43,175 bases of DNA from Gammaproteobacteria bacterium (GTDB taxonomy: Bacteria; Pseudomonadota; Gammaproteobacteria; Pseudomonadales; Azotimanducaceae): contig JAPOVY010000051.1 of assembly GCA_026707905.1 (NCBI GenBank), positions 1-43,175 on the forward strand. Reading direction: 5' to 3'. The position numbers and the translations under genes were made by a program. Below are positions 22,998 to 28,836 of this stretch, one piece after another; positions within the stretch are counted from its first letter, which is position 1, and each line of letters opens with the position of its first letter. The notes below the pieces were generated by a model. It had not been told where the DNA came from, did not search any database, and saw only the letters and a program-made list of their open reading frames with translations.

Positions 22998-23885
22998 CTA
23001 GAAGAGCGGAACTCCTGGTACTTTCACGGGTACACGATACAGGTGATTTGACGAAGTCATGTAGAAAGTGAGGTAGTCATCGCTACCCCAAGTGAAATTC
23101 GCGCAGAATGCTGGCGTCTGGATAACGCCTAAGCATACGCCATCCGGCGCGTAAATGTGCACCCCACCAGGTCCACAACAATAGACATTGTCGTTTGCGT
23201 CTACTTTTAAACCATCAGGTGCGCCGGCACCTTGGCCTGTCGACCGACCGAAAACATCGCCGCCAGTCAGTGTGCCATCGTCATCCACATCGAATTTGCG
23301 GATATGCATCTCCGGTGTATCAGCCACGTATAGGAATCGCTCGTCCTGAGTGAACGCAAGACCATTCGGTTGCGTAAAGTCGTTTCGCAGCATCACCAGT
23401 TCACCTGTCTCTCCGCTGATCTTGTAGACCGCGGTAAAGTCCAGCTCGAGTTCACGCGGTATACCGGTGTGATCGGCTCTGCCGAACGTAGGATCCGTGA
23501 AGAAGATATCGCCATTGCTACGAACGACGATATCGTTAGGACTATTGAGTTCTTTTCCGTCCCAGTGGCTTGCGAGTACATTGATCGTGCCGTCTGGTTC
23601 TTCTCTCACCACCCGACTCGTGCCGTGCTCACACGACAGTATGCGACCTTCCTTGTCGTACGTGTTACCGTTGGTCAGGTTGCTAGGCTCGCGATAGACT
23701 GTTACGCCGGTTTCTTCTGACCAGCGATGCATTCGGTTTCCGGGAATATCCGAAAAAGTCAGGTGTTTTTCAACGGGATGCCAGATAGGTCCTTCAGTGA
23801 AACCAAATCCTTCACCAAGCACCTCTAGTTCTATATCGTCGCTGACGATTTCGAGTACGCGCGTATCTCTAATTTCAATACCCAA
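22998..23885 (-). CDS. SMP-30/gluconolactonase family lactonase
   Basis: A 295-residue six-bladed beta-propeller hydrolase, probably opening a sugar lactone. Recognisable blocks include GFTEGPIWHPVEKHLTFSDI (27-46) with the metal-binding Glu, LNSPNDIVVRSNGDIFFTDPTFG, and PNGLAFTQDERFLYVADT with PDGLKVDANDNVYCCG. No signal peptide, so cytoplasmic. It lies 27 nt downstream of a PhyH-like gene on the same strand, which suggests a shared catabolic task. Substrate not predictable. Confidence 0.87.
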   Translation of the reverse strand: MGIEIRDTRVLEIVSDDIELEVLGEGFGFTEGPIWHPVEKHLTFSDIPGNRMHRWSEETGVTVYREPSNLTNGNTYDKEGRILSCEHGTSRVVREEPDGTINVLASHWDGKELNSPNDIVVRSNGDIFFTDPTFGRADHTGIPRELELDFTAVYKISGETGELVMLRNDFTQPNGLAFTQDERFLYVADTPEMHIRKFDVDDDGTLTGGDVFGRSTGQGAGAPDGLKVDANDNVYCCGPGGVHIYAPDGVCLGVIQTPAFCANFTWGSDDYLTFYMTSSNHLYRVPVKVPGVPLF

Positions 23886-23912
23886 GTCGACTCTCTTCTT
23901 TAGTGATGATGT

Positions 23913-24809
23913 TTACGCGAACGGATCCGTGCCAGTTTTCATGAAGGGGCCGACACGTTCTGGATGGTCGTTGTGTTCTTTGTAGGGGTACAAAGACTCG
24001 AGCCCTAGAACTCGTTCAAGTTCTGGATATTTGGTAAGCAAATTACTACTGAGCTCATCGCGATTCCATAGATGAATCGGTCGCATGTGCATTCGCATGA
24101 AAACCTGTACGAGGGTTACGCGAAGACCGGGATTTTGTCGTGGTTGCGAACCATGCCATGTCGAGCCGTGCCATACGGCGAGTGAGCCTGCTTCGCCCTC
24201 GAGCGTTACGACTGGGAAGGGGGTCTCTTCAAGTGAGGATTCGTGCGGCAAAGTTGCGCGTCCATATCGATGACTGCCCGGTACGAATACAGTGGGTCCG
24301 TCGTCTGCGGAGTTGTAGTCAGTACAAAGCCATGAGAGATTTGCGACGTGGGCGATGTGCCCGCCTCCGGGCGGTATGCCGTGTGCGTCGCTGTGCAATC
24401 CCAAGCCGTGCTTGGTCTTCGGCTTAATGATCCAAGTATGTCCTGCTAATACAGCGCTTTGCCCGCAAAGCCAACGGGCCATTGTGAGGACACGTGGATT
24501 GAGAGCCGCCTCGACGAAGACCTCGTCTTCCTGGAGTAGATACCACGAGTTGATGAATGATTTTTTGACGCCCTCTGCAGACGGGTCTTCGGGATCGCCG
24601 ATATTTAGGTCATTACGTTTTTCACATGTGCGGATGATTGCGTCCCGCAGGCGTGTGACAAAGTCCTTATCAGCACCCATCTTCTCAGGTGGAATGACGG
24701 TCAATCCATACGCTTCGAGTTCTAGTGCGTGCTTGAGTAAATCGTATTTCTCAAGATCTTGCATGAGACCGTCAAGATTAGGTTGCGCGCCTTGAGCCGC
24801 TATATTCAT
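23913..24809 (-). CDS. Phytanoyl-CoA dioxygenase (PhyH) family protein
   Basis: A 298-residue Fe(II)/2-oxoglutarate oxygenase. From the ATG at 24809, the metal triad is His139-x-Asp141 (GLHSDAHG) and His219 (STWHGSQPRQN), with Arg230 for 2-oxoglutarate, so all key residues are present. GPTVFVPGSHRYGRA is a PhyH signature. A TTG at 24827 would add six residues; ATG was preferred. It is followed by the SMP-30 gene. Substrate is unknown; it is clearly diverged from the other two PhyH-like proteins here. Confidence 0.88.
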   Translation of the reverse strand: MNIAAQGAQPNLDGLMQDLEKYDLLKHALELEAYGLTVIPPEKMGADKDFVTRLRDAIIRTCEKRNDLNIGDPEDPSAEGVKKSFINSWYLLQEDEVFVEAALNPRVLTMARWLCGQSAVLAGHTWIIKPKTKHGLGLHSDAHGIPPGGGHIAHVANLSWLCTDYNSADDGPTVFVPGSHRYGRATLPHESSLEETPFPVVTLEGEAGSLAVWHGSTWHGSQPRQNPGLRVTLVQVFMRMHMRPIHLWNRDELSSNLLTKYPELERVLGLESLYPYKEHNDHPERVGPFMKTGTDPFA

Positions 24810-24848
24810 GTGTGGCTTGAAATCCAAAAGCGAGGTCGAAGTTTACAA

Positions 24849-25274
24849 CTATGGTCGATACTGGGACTCGATCACTTCTCGAAGGACGTCGTCGCGTTGA
24901 TCGAGCAGATGAGTGTTCGCCCATTCTCGCAGTTCGCGCATCGGAAATTGGCGACCAGGGCACGTTGTTTTTTTATCGCGCCTGACTTGGCGATGTGCGC
25001 CAATCTGCACGGCGGGATACCGTAATTTGAGATCGAGTAGTAAGTCTTTAAGCGCTTGTAACTGACGAGGTGGCACCGATTCTGTATCGAAATCACCCAC
25101 GAGCTGAATTCCAATCGAGTTAGGATGTTGCGTACTTAAATCGTCGCTTTCGAGATGTTCGATCGTGGCGTCTGCGCCGATACGATAGTGAAACGAATCT
25201 CGATAACAGCGACCGTGATGCAGGAGTACGAATTTCTTCGCGCCGATTGGACGTTTCGGTGATGTGTTACTCAA
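24849..25274 (-). CDS. PGRP-type N-acetylmuramoyl-L-alanine amidase, no signal peptide
   Basis: A 141-residue amidase_2/PGRP-fold protein. In the longer numbering from 25328, visible elements are VLLHHGR (37-38 for the paired His), FHYRIGADATIEHL, HPNSIGIQLVGDFD, AHRQV (His112) and TTCPG (Cys123), matching zinc ligands His/His/Cys of T7-lysozyme-like amidases. TTG at 25274 begins one base after the upstream stop and is preferred; the GTG-type start at 25328 would overlap the upstream gene by 53 nt. It lacks a signal peptide, so it may be cytoplasmic (muropeptide recycling, AmpD-like) or exported another way. It is coupled to the glutaredoxin-DinB gene. Confidence 0.78.
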   Translation of the reverse strand: MSNTSPKRPIGAKKFVLLHHGRCYRDSFHYRIGADATIEHLESDDLSTQHPNSIGIQLVGDFDTESVPPRQLQALKDLLLDLKLRYPAVQIGAHRQVRRDKKTTCPGRQFPMRELREWANTHLLDQRDDVLREVIESQYRP

Positions 25275-25275
25275 C

Positions 25276-26019
25276 TTAGTCCCATACCTCAATCGGAATC
25301 GGCAACCCGTCGAATAAACCTTCGTCACTTGTAGGCATGATCGAAGTATCTATGTCGTGCATAAGGCTAGCGAGTTGACGTAGATGTTGAGCGATGTGCC
25401 AAGTACTGCGTTCGAGTACGTAGTGGAGTGACGCGAAGCCAAAATAAGTTTCGACACTTTTTTCGTAATCGAGAGTCTCGACCGACAGTATTGCCGCAAG
25501 ATCTTTGATAGATGAGTGGAGTTGAGCGCGCGACGACTCACGACTCACTTCCGCATCTGCAGCCGTCGTGTCAAATTTTGAAACGCCCGTGGCAACGCGT
25601 TGATAGACCGCTGCGATTTCGCACATGTGCTCCACGAGGTTCCAGACCGTTCGATCACGACCTGGGATCTTTATGCCATGAGCGGATTCCGGAATGCGAT
25701 TTATCGCACGATCAAGAATAGTTAGAAATGCGATTTGCCGTTTGATGAGTTCCGCAGGAGAGAGTTGCGGTTCTGAGTCGTAGTCAAGTCCGACAAGACT
25801 TGCTACTTGCTGTAGATCGACTCCGTGTACGGCTTGGTCGCCGACCGCAACGATGGGTACCGTCCTGAAACCGAGTCCTTCAAGTTCCGCACGCCGCGTC
25901 GCGTCTTCTCGAATGTTCGCAGACTCGAACTCAACCGCACGGGTCGAGAGGAATTCTTTAACCCGTAAGCAGCTCGTTCATCCAGGTTGCCAATAGACGA
26001 CTGGATGGGTCAGGTTCAA
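25276..26019 (-). CDS. Glutaredoxin-DinB fusion, candidate UxxC selenoprotein (in-frame TGA)
   Basis: 247 codons if TGA 25978-25980 is read through. The N-terminal ~85 residues are glutaredoxin-like: VVYWQPG-TGA-TSCLRVKEFLSTR, then ALEGLGFRTVPI-like block ELEGLGFRTVPIVAVGDQAV with the cis-Pro. The TGA sits exactly at the first Cys of CxxC, giving UxxC if decoded as selenocysteine. The C-terminal ~150 residues form a DinB-like four-helix domain (RTVWNLVEHMCEIAAVY, VLERSTWHIAQHLRQLASLM). No start codon exists between the TGA and GTG 25635, and the frame has no other lesion, so the whole glutaredoxin half would be lost without readthrough. The start is TTG 26019, overlapping the VOC gene's TGA, with GGGAG 11 nt upstream. 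Alternative: Cys-to-stop mutation. Confidence 0.75.
25939..25966 (-). promoter_or_regulatory. Candidate bacterial SECIS stem-loop after the in-frame TGA
   Basis: Reading the minus strand, 11 nt after the TGA, ACGGGT (25966-25961) pairs perfectly with ACCCGT (25944-25939) around a 16-nt loop, with a possible further U-G pair. The loop centre is about 25 nt from the TGA, within the distance known for bacterial SECIS elements. It does not clearly place a G at the first loop positions as the consensus prefers, so support is moderate. Confidence 0.4.
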
Positions 26020-26477
26020 TTTTCGTCGGACTCCCAATAGGGAGAACTATTTAGCGGTCCAACATTTTCACCTAGCTGGATCAAGACCCCGTGCGAGCTC
26101 TTCGGAGAAATAAACGCGTCGACACCGCCTTCATCTTTGCTGAAGTGTTTGTCCACTACACGCACACCCGCGTTTTCTAGCTCATCGACCCTATCGACGA
26201 GTTCAGGTGTTTGAAGCGTGATGTGGTGAACGCCTTCGCCGCGCTTTTCTAAATACCTCTGTAAGAATCCATCCGGATTGATTGGTTCCAATAGCTCGAT
26301 ACAGAAGCCCTGCAGATCAAGAATCCCAAGGCGAAAGTCGCCGCTGTGATGGTCAACGACACGTTGCATCGTCGCACCCATCGTTCCTTCCCAGAACTTA
26401 CGGGCTTCATCGATACTGTGAACGGCAAACCCGATGTGATCGAGTTTGCCGATCGGCGATTTACTCGACTCGCTCAT
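26016..26477 (-). CDS. VOC protein, methylmalonyl-CoA epimerase-like
   Basis: A 153-residue glyoxalase/bleomycin-fold protein. KLDHIGFAVHSIDEARKFW opens the first module and GVHHITLQTPELVDRVDEL the second; the His of LDHIG and of VHHIT plus Glu in FCIELLEP match the metal ligands of methylmalonyl-CoA epimerases. The ending HGVLIQLGE is also typical. It may interconvert branched acyl-CoA epimers, in keeping with the CoA enzymes nearby. Its stop overlaps the TTG start of the glutaredoxin-DinB gene (TTGA), so the two are translationally coupled. Confidence 0.82.
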   Translation of the reverse strand: MSESSKSPIGKLDHIGFAVHSIDEARKFWEGTMGATMQRVVDHHSGDFRLGILDLQGFCIELLEPINPDGFLQRYLEKRGEGVHHITLQTPELVDRVDELENAGVRVVDKHFSKDEGGVDAFISPKSSHGVLIQLGENVGPLNSSPYWESDEN

Positions 26478-26517
26478 AGCAGTAGTTTAGTTTCACCTGC
26501 TTTGGGCCACGGACTCT

Positions 26518-28173
26518 CTAGGTAGTGAGCCAACCGAACTGTTGCGGTTTACGTCCAGCACGAGGATTGAGCGGAACATTGATTAACGTCGGTCCATCGA
26601 AAGCCATCGCATCGTCAAGTACACCGCGCAAATCTTGGGGATCTTCGACGTAGTAGCCCTTACCACCTAACGCTTCCATCATGCCTTCGTAATGTGCACC
26701 ATAGGTCAAGATGCCCGGAGGTACCGTTTGACCTTCCTTAAGTGGACCGATACCGCCACCGATGCCGCCGTTGTTCAATACGATCAGTTTGATAGGCAGT
26801 TTGTACCGCACCATGGTTTCTATTTCCATTCCAGAAAACCCGAACGCAGAGTCGCCTTGAACCGAAACAACAGGTTGGTCAGGATTGGTGACTGCGGCTG
26901 CGATTGCGAACCCGAGGCCGATACCCATTGTGCCGTACGTACCGGCGTCGAGACGATGACGAGCACGCTTGTTCAACATTTGAGTACGCCCGATGTCCAT
27001 CGTGTTAGCGCCTTCGCCGATGATGATTGCGTCGTCGGGAAGCCATTCATTGATGTCCTTGAACGCACGGTAGTAATTCATTGGCGTCGCATCGTCTTCG
27101 ATCATGCCTTTAACTGCTTCCGCGTTATCGTCAGCCTTTGCCTTCAGAGTCTGTCGCCATGCGGTCTCGTCTGGATAGAACCACTGTCTGTTACCGAGCG
27201 CGGTGTTGAGTTGCTTCGTAATCGCTTTGCCATCACCGACTAGTGCAACTTCAGACTGCACGTTTCGTCCAATTTCCTCGGGGTTGATATCGAGTTGGAT
27301 GATGCGTACGTCCTTATTGAAACGCGGTGGCAACCCGAAGTGCATGATCCAGTTCAGTCGTGCGCCCATCAAGAACACGACGTCGGCTTCACGAAGTGCG
27401 GTACTACGTGCAGCACCTACGGACAAAGGATCATCGTCCGGCAATATGCCTTTGCCCATGGGCGAAGCAAGGAAAGGAAGTTGCGTACGTTCGATGAACG
27501 CACGTACCTCATCTTCTGCCCTCGACCATGCCATACCCTTGCCGACTACAACAAGAGGTTTCTCCGCAGACTCAAGCGCATCCAATGCGCCTTCGATCGC
27601 GTCGGGGTCAGCTAAAGTTCGTGGTGGCGCCGGGACAGTCGAAACGGGTTGAAGATCGTCCTCTTCGACCTCTGCTCGAATGATGTCGTCTGGGAAGTCC
27701 AGATAAACCGGACCAGGTCGTCCAAAAATCGAACTTTGAACGGCTTGTGCGACGTAGTAGGGAATACGTTCCGCGTGTTCGATGTTGTGAGCGTACTTGC
27801 AATATGGCGCAGCTAGTTCGGTCTGCCGTTCCTCCTGAAATGCCCCCATACCATTCTGATACACAGGCGAGGCGCCGCCGATCAAAATCATCGGCCAGCA
27901 GTTCTCTTTCGCGTTTGCTAATCCGGCAAAGGCATGGATCACACCTGGACCAGAGACGGTAAGACACGCTTGCGGGCGACCGGTGAGATAGCCTGCGGCA
28001 TGTGCCGCATAGCTAGCCGCCTGTTCGTTTCGCATCCCAATGTAGGTGATGCCTTCGTTTTGCGCGGCTGCAGCCACGCCCTGAACAGGGAAACCGACGA
28101 TGCCGAACATGTAGTCGACACCTTGTTGCTTGAGGCTCCGCGCCATCAAGGTTGCGCCATTTACAGTAGCCAT
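26518..28173 (-). CDS. ThDP-dependent 2-hydroxyacyl-CoA lyase / oxalyl-CoA decarboxylase-like
   Basis: A 551-residue enzyme of the thiamine diphosphate family, cytoplasmic. Cofactor-activating Glu50 is in MRNEQAASYAAHAAGYLTG; the ThDP/Mg motif is GDSAFGFSGME (440-450) to NNGG (467-470); the middle domain carries PLVVVGKGMAWS. ALREADVVFLMGARLNW and the overall pattern fit the oxalyl-CoA decarboxylase/2-hydroxyacyl-CoA lyase clade rather than acetolactate synthase. The active-site loop reads AFQEERQ, with Gln where oxalyl-CoA decarboxylase has Tyr, which favours the lyase: 2-hydroxyacyl-CoA to aldehyde plus formyl-CoA. The VOC gene follows 40 nt downstream. Substrate is not proven. Confidence 0.82.
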   Translation of the reverse strand: MATVNGATLMARSLKQQGVDYMFGIVGFPVQGVAAAAQNEGITYIGMRNEQAASYAAHAAGYLTGRPQACLTVSGPGVIHAFAGLANAKENCWPMILIGGASPVYQNGMGAFQEERQTELAAPYCKYAHNIEHAERIPYYVAQAVQSSIFGRPGPVYLDFPDDIIRAEVEEDDLQPVSTVPAPPRTLADPDAIEGALDALESAEKPLVVVGKGMAWSRAEDEVRAFIERTQLPFLASPMGKGILPDDDPLSVGAARSTALREADVVFLMGARLNWIMHFGLPPRFNKDVRIIQLDINPEEIGRNVQSEVALVGDGKAITKQLNTALGNRQWFYPDETAWRQTLKAKADDNAEAVKGMIEDDATPMNYYRAFKDINEWLPDDAIIIGEGANTMDIGRTQMLNKRARHRLDAGTYGTMGIGLGFAIAAAVTNPDQPVVSVQGDSAFGFSGMEIETMVRYKLPIKLIVLNNGGIGGGIGPLKEGQTVPPGILTYGAHYEGMMEALGGKGYYVEDPQDLRGVLDDAMAFDGPTLINVPLNPRAGRKPQQFGWLTT

Positions 28174-28359: not shown

Positions 28360-28836
28360 TTAGAGTATCGTCTTCAACGTGTTGGCGATTTCGTCGGGTG
28401 TAACCTGCGGCTCGAAGCGCTCAAGGACGTTGCCATCACCGTCAATCAGGAACTTTGTGAAGTTCCAACCGATGTTGGGTTTACCGTTGGGACGCGATTT
28501 CTGTGATGTGAGCCACTGGTAGAGCTCACACGCACCGTCGTCGCGAACTTCAACTTTGCTGAAGAGTGGAAAGGTTGCCCCATACTGTGACTGCGCGAAC
28601 TCACAGATCTGTTCGTCGCTACCAGGTTCCTGTTCACCGAATTGGTTGCAAGGGAACCCCAATACCGTGAATTCCTTCGTCGCGAAATCCTGTTGTAGTT
28701 TCTCAAGTCCTTCATACTGACGTGTGAAACCGCATTCACTAGCGACATTGACAACGAGACAATGCTTACCTTTGAACTGATCGAACGACACGTCATTACC
28801 GTCGATCGCTTTCATTTTGAAGTTGTGAAATGACAT
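28360..28836 (-). CDS. Glutathione peroxidase, cysteine type
   Basis: A 158-residue thiol peroxidase that reduces hydroperoxides. The active site is VASECGFT with Cys35 (encoded by TGC, not TGA), then GFPCNQFGEQEPGSD with the catalytic Gln and second Cys, and NIGWNFTKFLID with the Trp/Asn of the tetrad. There is no signal peptide. It starts 8 nt after the enoyl-CoA hydratase stop, so the two share a transcript. The next gene downstream begins 186 nt later and may have its own promoter. Confidence 0.93.
   Translation of the reverse strand: MSFHNFKMKAIDGNDVSFDQFKGKHCLVVNVASECGFTRQYEGLEKLQQDFATKEFTVLGFPCNQFGEQEPGSDEQICEFAQSQYGATFPLFSKVEVRDDGACELYQWLTSQKSRPNGKPNIGWNFTKFLIDGDGNVLERFEPQVTPDEIANTLKTIL

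Follow-up and report, generated by a model that had tools for sequence, protein, structure and literature searches.

A probable selenocysteine-containing glutaredoxin fused to a DinB/YfiT-fold domain in a gammaproteobacterial genome

Glutaredoxin (Grx) selenoproteins and cysteine-containing glutaredoxin-DinB fusions are each already known kinds of protein. Table 1 of the 2026 inventory of prokaryotic selenoproteins (PMC13188914) lists 119 selenoprotein families or subfamilies, including Grx, AhpF-N/Grx-like and UXX-star, and it gives the selenocysteine (Sec) form of Grx (PF00462, UxxC) as experimentally verified. The second relevant group is the DinB/YfiT superfamily, with the bacillithiol S-transferases BstA-H, mycothiol S-transferase and EgtB. 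According to the available part of PMC5815605, eight proteins of this superfamily transfer bacillithiol in a metal-dependent manner and have a His triad in common, and no superfamily member is named there with a glutaredoxin domain or selenocysteine. Finally, fusions of both domains with Cys are found on plasmids of Roseomonas, Variovorax, Caballeronia and Rhizobium, annotated as 'DinB family protein', 'glutaredoxin domain-containing protein' or 'hypothetical protein'.

With the locus described here, the bacterial selenoproteins appear to gain a two-domain family, whose gene is cut at the TGA in an ordinary ORF list. The window, that is, the whole stretch of 43,175 nucleotides that was analysed (contig C82 [GenBank:JAPOVY010000051.1] of a 157-contig, 3.49-Mb assembly that is 93% complete), carries on its minus strand a gene that very probably encodes a selenoprotein, a two-domain Sec-glutaredoxin/DinB-fold protein in which UGA 25978-25980 is read as Sec. 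Like Sec-Grx, it has the glutaredoxin fold, with Sec (here predicted) as the first residue of the redox motif and Cys at +3, but, unlike the entry in PMC13188914 Table 1, which is without a second domain, it is fused to a DinB/YfiT-fold domain. With the DinB/YfiT superfamily, as presented in the available part of PMC5815605, it shares the four-helix bundle and the His...HxxxH triad. The plasmid Cys fusions have the same two-domain architecture and are 31.5-41.5% identical to one of the Sec proteins (L054) over at least 99% of the latter; however, they have TGC or TGT in the 6 of 13 records in which the codon was read, show no SECIS-like signal and do not keep Arg27. UXX-star and HUGP/GUXX-star (NF041212, NF041211 and NF045501) are likewise selenoproteins distantly resembling glutaredoxin, and one of them is a fusion, but PMC13188914 Table 1 mentions no DinB domain in their case. 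The window protein scores 29.4 of the 66 bits needed for NF041212, 20.4 of 100 for NF041211 and 19.3 of 325 for NF045501. Of the NCBIfam models (release 20.0, June 2026), Grx and UXX-star included, none reached its cut-off in the three members tested, and the scores with Uxx_star (NF041212, cut-off 66 bits) were 29.4, 28.5 and 36.7. A DinB fusion is absent from Table 1 of PMC13188914, and the word DinB is absent from the available main texts of PMC13188914, PMC9312934 and PMC2398784. A full-text literature search, judged by titles and the opening lines of abstracts, gave no description of a selenocysteine Grx-DinB protein; a member may possibly be present among the 'Grx-like' sequences of the metagenome selenoproteome papers.

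The frame of the gene contains a single in-frame TGA, at residue 14, which takes the place of the first redox residue in a YWQPG-U-TSC glutaredoxin, and is otherwise intact. An earlier note on this DNA had placed this TGA where YWQPGCxxC glutaredoxins have their first redox Cys, in an otherwise undamaged 247-codon frame, and had stated that the glutaredoxin half has no internal start, the first being GTG 25635; this description is correct. The sole ORF of at least 80 aa in the frame starts at GTG 25635, is 119 aa long and covers the DinB half only. The start of the gene is likely TTG 26019-26017, as judged from its overlap with the stop of the upstream VOC gene: the TGA stop and the TTG start overlap as TTGA. 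If the downstream Amidase_2 gene starts at TTG 25274, it lies 1 base past the TAA stop. Coordinates are collected in the table below.

Features of the putative Sec-glutaredoxin/DinB-fold locus (positions in the window)
Feature	Position	Strand	Basis or remark
Sec-containing glutaredoxin-DinB fusion gene (predicted)	25276..26019	minus	247 codons + TAA stop; translation, Pfam, alignments
In-frame TGA, codon for the predicted Sec14 in the UTSC redox motif	25978..25980	minus	codon counts across loci
Cys17 codon, second residue of the UxxC motif	25969..25971	minus	Cys in 75/75 Sec forms and 21/21 Cys forms
Glutaredoxin domain, residues 7-63	25831..26001	minus	PF00462, 43.5 bits; Foldseek BC3987, TMt 0.88
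DinB/YfiT-fold four-helix-bundle domain, residues 103-216	25372..25713	minus	PF12867; Foldseek DR0053 (6iz2), TMt 0.72
Codon of His131, first putative metal-triad residue	25627..25629	minus	His in 96/96 loci
His208-xxx-His212, the other two putative metal-triad residues	25384..25398	minus	both His in 96/96 loci
Predicted bacterial SECIS hairpin (distal hairpin)	25930..25948	minus	7-bp stem, UGA-to-apical-loop 36 nt, -8.1 kcal/mol
CGUGC apical loop of the predicted SECIS hairpin, with conserved G	25937..25941	minus	G in 75/75 Sec loci
Proximal stem, 25966-25961 with 25944-25939	25939..25966	minus	alternative fold, partly conserved
Upstream gene, glyoxalase/VOC family	26016..26477	minus	PF13669, 64.8 bits
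Downstream gene, N-acetylmuramoyl-L-alanine amidase-like (Amidase_2)	24849..25274	minus	PF01510, 40 bits

The TGA is conserved far beyond the window. In the first set of loci, the motif [YF]WQPG-TGA-[TS][SG]C is kept in 31/31, and on this sequence pattern chance can therefore be excluded as the origin of the in-frame TGA. With a single protein as query, 134 of 390 genomes in the window's order gave matches; 5 are full-length relatives with one TGA each, and the other 129 have a best E of 1.7e-7 or worse, the rows listed covering mainly the glutaredoxin domain. With an alignment as query, the gene was found in 30 of the 206 genomes of the window's family (E<=1e-14), each with one TGA, located in all 30 at the redox column. 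Within the window's own genus, the search did not detect it in 9 of 18 genomes. Among 398 genomes of the phylum, one further genome, G514 (E<=1e-14), also with TGA, was found among the matches listed, in a search that scored at most six candidates in the rows shown and may miss members. In the order to which G514 belongs, 68 of 76 genomes have the gene and all 68 have a TGA copy, a tally counted by hand from the match rows with three partial matches, the redox column itself being read in 33 of the 68. Two of these genomes, G996 and G1001, have a full-length stop-free copy besides the TGA copy; two more stop-free rows in this order are fragments short of the codon. Across the class of G514 (337 genomes), the gene is present in 28 (E<=1e-15), 16 with TGA and 12 with Cys only; 4 of the 16 are from G514's order, and G1285 has both forms. 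The TGA form on contigs JAPOXV010000026.1, JAPOVV010000110.1 and JAJECH010000012.1 corresponds to loci L056, L055 and L022, respectively, and was not counted twice. The Grx-DinB fusion is common in two groups of the phylum that are only distantly related to each other. Downstream of the TGA, dN/dS is 0.08-0.39 in eight close pairs and in both halves; by this measure the whole post-TGA frame is under purifying selection. The earlier note had looked to close relatives for retention of the TGA, and in the family it is retained without exception, with the rest of the frame constrained.

The codon at the redox column alternates between Sec and Cys. In 97 loci (31 of the first set and 66 further ones, the column being placed in all 97 by the motif with U or C), it is TGA in 76, TGC in 14 and TGT in 7. 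Since L085 duplicates L054, there are 75 distinct Sec loci to set beside the 21 Cys loci. The earlier note had proposed to look for such an alternation at this column. The locus agrees with what is expected of bacterial selenoproteins, a UGA within the frame at a conserved functional position where other homologues carry Cys. Thirteen plasmid records carry the fusion, and the codon is Cys in all 6 in which it was read (Roseomonas marmotae, three Caballeronia, Variovorax and Rhizobium leguminosarum). On a 69-row tree (48 Sec and 21 Cys rows, 28 near-copies having been removed beforehand), which is unrooted, uses all columns and does not give the direction of change between Sec and Cys, parsimony requires 2 Sec/Cys changes, of which the starred branches force only 1. 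Sec and Cys forms occur together in three genomes, G996, G1001 and G1285. These genomes and the many matched Sec and Cys forms offer a natural test of what Sec brings to a glutaredoxin. Arg27, which is encoded within the distal hairpin, is present in 75/75 Sec loci versus 1/21 Cys loci; this contrast may come partly from shared ancestry, because the Sec forms cluster on the tree. A separate observation is that the Gly preceding the redox position is replaced by His (WQPH-U/C) in four Sec members (L131, L134, L137 and L139) and three Cys members (L144-L146), possibly a subgroup with a functional difference.

The genome that contains the window also contains the machinery of Sec decoding, in all four components that had been named for a search: a tRNA-Sec(UCA) gene (71.1 bits, cut-off 47; called tRNA-SeC(tca) by ARAGORN), selA (536 bits, cut-off 268), selB (405 bits, cut-off 242), which adjoins selA, and selD (263 bits, cut-off 125). 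The selD gene (G000:C108:25481-26380, L018) lies inside a 745-codon open frame; its SelD part has CGGC and is stop-free. By eye, and by analogy with the Ndh-SelD fusions described in the available part of PMC2398784, the first part of this frame looks like an NADH-dehydrogenase domain.

With selA in 170 of its 206 genomes, the window's family is rich in the selenocysteine trait. For this reason, co-occurrence of selA with the fusion gene within the family (29/30 gene-bearing versus 141/176 other genomes, p 0.034) is weak evidence, and the test was therefore redone in the class of G514. There, selA is present in 11/12 Sec-bearing, 3/12 Cys-only and 2/20 gene-less genomes (Fisher p 0.0028 and 6.6e-6, p-values that serve only as a guide as the genomes are related). 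This set comprises all 12 Sec-bearing genomes outside G514's order (G1285, with both forms, being classed as Sec-bearing), all 12 Cys-only genomes, and 20 gene-less genomes that are the first no-match rows of the class search and hence non-random. In the order of G514 itself, 18 of 76 genomes were tested, and selA was found in 14/14 with the gene and 3/4 without. The two gene-bearing genomes without selA, G806 and G1024, are each 77% complete.

Within the coding region, a hairpin distal to the TGA (25930-25948) is most likely the SECIS element. Folding was scored in 24-nt windows along 31 genes against synonymous-codon permutations within each gene. The mean z at +30..+53 past the TGA is -2.36, with all 31 loci negative, and the next lowest window between -12 and +324 reaches -0.99. 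Over all distinct Sec loci, z at +30..+53 is negative in 75/75 and below -1.64 in 50. The mean is -2.44 for the Sec loci of the family, -1.82 for other Sec loci and +0.13 for Cys loci, with values below -1.64 in 28/30, 22/45 and 0/21, respectively. The hairpin is paired in 92.4% of cells, versus at most 44.8% if one partner is slid by 1-3 columns, and at least 6 of its 7 pairs form in 27/31 loci. It also covaries: 20 cells show two-sided changes against a shuffle mean of 8.3, and the covariation score is 0.347 against 0.209, with 0/500 shuffles as high. The number of its pairs with a two-sided change (4 versus a mean of 2.7; 86/500) and of further pair types (10 versus 8.6; 118/500) does not stand out from the shuffles. 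The outermost pair swaps between C-G and G-C through a silent Leu third position and a Glu/Asp change. The conserved loop G is followed by U in 72/75 Sec loci and by G in the other 3. In L070, L071 and L072 the hairpin is 3 nt closer to the TGA (CUCUCC-GUGC-GGGGAG), and the loop still opens with GU. As the hairpin encodes Ser25-x-Arg27, which is tightly tied to Sec, a coding-region RNA element may here shape the protein.

The available part of PMC13188914 gives rules for bacterial SECIS (bSECIS) elements, namely a loop of 3-9 nt, a stem of 4-16 bp and a G in the first two loop positions, together with a spacing of 16-37 nt and an energy of -7.5 kcal/mol or lower (Fig. 2 legend). We applied them in our own coding of the published model. 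The window's hairpin satisfies these values with a loop of 5 nt and the stem, spacing and energy given in the table, although it is not the minimum-energy fold there. All coded rules are satisfied by 21/30 family and 39/45 other Sec loci (60/75) and by 1/21 Cys loci; 15/75 Sec loci miss the energy rule. The bSECIS energy is better than in 95% of codon permutations in 23/30 family and 11/45 other Sec loci (34/75 Sec loci) and 1/21 Cys loci.

A competing fold is a proximal 6-bp stem, 11 nt past the TGA, to which the earlier note had drawn attention. This stem exists and in the window it folds more stably than the distal hairpin, but it is not the conserved, covarying element of the family. It shares bases with the distal hairpin, so the two are mutually exclusive. 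In the window's isolated 57-nt RNA starting at the UGA, the minimum-energy fold is the proximal stem rather than the distal hairpin; over the window and five close relatives, that fold is either this stem or a long-range structure related to it. The proximal stem persists in the window when folding starts from +12, as if the ribosome covered the beginning. The distal hairpin appears in the minimum-energy fold of 18/30 family, 37/45 other Sec and 0/21 Cys loci, and the proximal stem (at least 5 pairs) in 5/30, 0/45 and 0/21. The proximal stem also shows more two-sided cells than shuffles (11 versus 4.4). However, it is paired in 73.3% of cells against the 92.4% of the distal hairpin and is complete in 8/31 loci, and was set aside as a family-wide SECIS. 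The distal hairpin is preferred because it is family-wide, covaries and fits the bSECIS rules, whereas 16 nt lie between the two arms of the proximal stem. In the window itself and among its closest relatives, either of the two could act as the SECIS.

These data bear on three other readings of the TGA. If the gene were a pseudogene, a nonsense mutation would have split the glutaredoxin half from the DinB half, leaving a gene in decay or one expressing the DinB part only, which would agree with an ORF list that gives only the 119-aa DinB fragment. Against this, the TGA is kept in every family genome with the gene (30/30), a TGA copy is found in 68/68 genomes of a distant order, both halves past the TGA remain constrained in the eight pairs, and every other codon read at the column is a Cys codon. 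The pseudogene reading was rejected on the conservation of the TGA over 75 distinct loci and appears to us very improbable. A single-base sequencing or assembly error is a natural concern in a metagenome-assembled genome of 157 contigs, but the same codon is found in many separate assemblies, including the single-contig G938, G922 and G514, and we rejected this explanation as one with practically no chance of being correct. Reassignment of TGA (for example, to Trp) or general stop readthrough would keep the frame open as well. However, TGA ends other genes in the window, the upstream VOC gene among them, the column holds Cys in every homologue that lacks TGA (21/21), and the full Sec machinery is present, as is a SECIS-like element that goes with the TGA forms. 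On these grounds both variants were rejected, and there is hardly any likelihood left for them. Decoding of the TGA as Sec, taken alone, is by sequence comparison nearly certain, and Sec decoding, the domain architecture, the Sec/Cys alternation and purifying selection are all supported by the comparative data. In the predicted scheme, SelB and Sec-tRNA(Sec) would decode the UGA with the help of the coding-region SECIS hairpin, and the 247-residue product would have an N-terminal glutaredoxin fold with a Sec14-Thr-Ser-Cys17 redox centre, followed by a C-terminal DinB/YfiT-fold four-helix bundle with His131, His208 and His212.

Domain searches, in which U was read as C, agree with this architecture. 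Residues 7-63 match PF00462 Glutaredoxin above its cut-off of 22.9 bits. Residues 103-216 match PF12867 DinB_2 with 19.1 bits, below the gathering cut-off of 24.8, which 3 of 8 further members tested do pass (29.4, 35.6 and 42.2 bits). In the 31 first-set members, the glutaredoxin domain is detected in all and DinB_2 in 25 (E<=0.01). Because the DinB_2 cut-off is missed in the window and the result is mixed in relatives, we use the term DinB/YfiT-fold domain. An AlphaFold model built with the 31-row alignment has a mean pLDDT of 91.6 and a pTM of 0.87. In Foldseek searches against the PDB, the N-terminal half of the model matches the thioredoxin-like BC3987 (3zit; E 2e-3), and the C-terminal half matches DinB/YfiT proteins, namely, besides 6iz2, 2p1a (TMt 0.72) and 1rxq (TMt 0.56-0.58), with E of 4e-3 to 8e-3. 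Glutathione S-transferases, which gave the only Foldseek match with E below 0.001 and many of the high rows, were rejected as fold matches (TM about 0.3, rmsd about 15 Å). The best PDB profile matches are the glutaredoxins 7c10 and 7c12. A profile of the DinB half aligns the triad with the His...HxxxH of the DinB-like chain 2p1a, but weakly (E 0.094) and in rank behind two unrelated chains. The four-helix bundle of the predicted model is accompanied by a His...HxxxH triad that is invariant in all 96 loci (75 Sec and 21 Cys), and from this conservation the site likely binds a divalent metal.

The potential function of the protein may be considered in this context. In the mechanism that we consider most likely, the metal of the DinB half would bind a low-molecular-weight thiol, which in these Gram-negatives is glutathione, or a conjugate of that thiol, in the manner of DinB-superfamily S-transferases, and the Sec-glutaredoxin half would reduce the mixed disulfide or conjugate so formed. 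The invariant His triad suggests such a Sec-Grx-coupled transferase or reductase for these thiols. With Sec instead of Cys, the attack on the mixed disulfide or conjugate would be faster. Such coupling of thiol activation at a DinB metal to Sec-glutaredoxin reduction, with metal and chemistry proposed from the fold and the invariant residues, has something under an even chance of being correct. Still more tentatively, the protein could represent the first selenoenzyme of the DinB/YfiT thiol-transferase superfamily, an undescribed family in which a glutathione-activating metal site is joined to a product-resolving Sec-glutaredoxin. Alternatively, the DinB half could be structural or could recruit a substrate, and the selenoprotein would be an ordinary Sec-glutaredoxin, a disulfide reductase, acting on a protein or on a catabolic intermediate of the neighbouring genes. 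This is in keeping with the neighbours seen within the genus (TPP enzyme, VOC protein, PhyH dioxygenase and SMP-30 protein) and with a glutaredoxin domain found in 31/31 members when DinB_2 is found in 25. On the other hand, the invariance of the His triad in 96/96 loci suggests catalysis, and most of these neighbours are not kept outside the genus; we consider this alternative possible, at roughly one chance in three. If the DinB half is indeed a thiol transferase, selenium chemistry would reach into a large and mostly uncharacterised superfamily.

The gene neighbourhood was compared in 36 regions, and there is no general conserved context for the Grx-DinB gene across them. Positions 22998-28173 of the window hold co-directional genes for an SMP-30 protein, a PhyH dioxygenase, an AmpD-like amidase, the predicted selenoprotein, the VOC protein and a TPP enzyme, and this set is partly retained in the same-genus relatives L157, L158 and L180, and also in L051. 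Since co-directional genes are partly kept in relatives of the genus, this arrangement suggests a catabolic operon. The amidase gene next door, which the earlier note regarded as coupled to the fusion, is present as an amidase-like neighbour, but both it and the VOC gene are restricted to the window's genus among the 36 regions. Outside the genus, a PhyH-like gene lies near L155, which is from another genus, a TPP enzyme gene lies near L115 and L176, and amidase-signature genes lie near 4 scattered loci, these labels having been assigned by eye from shared blastp groups. Finally, the window of this Sec-capable genome also contains a glutathione peroxidase gene (28360-28836, minus strand), whose active-site motif NVASECGF has Cys at the position where some relatives carry Sec.
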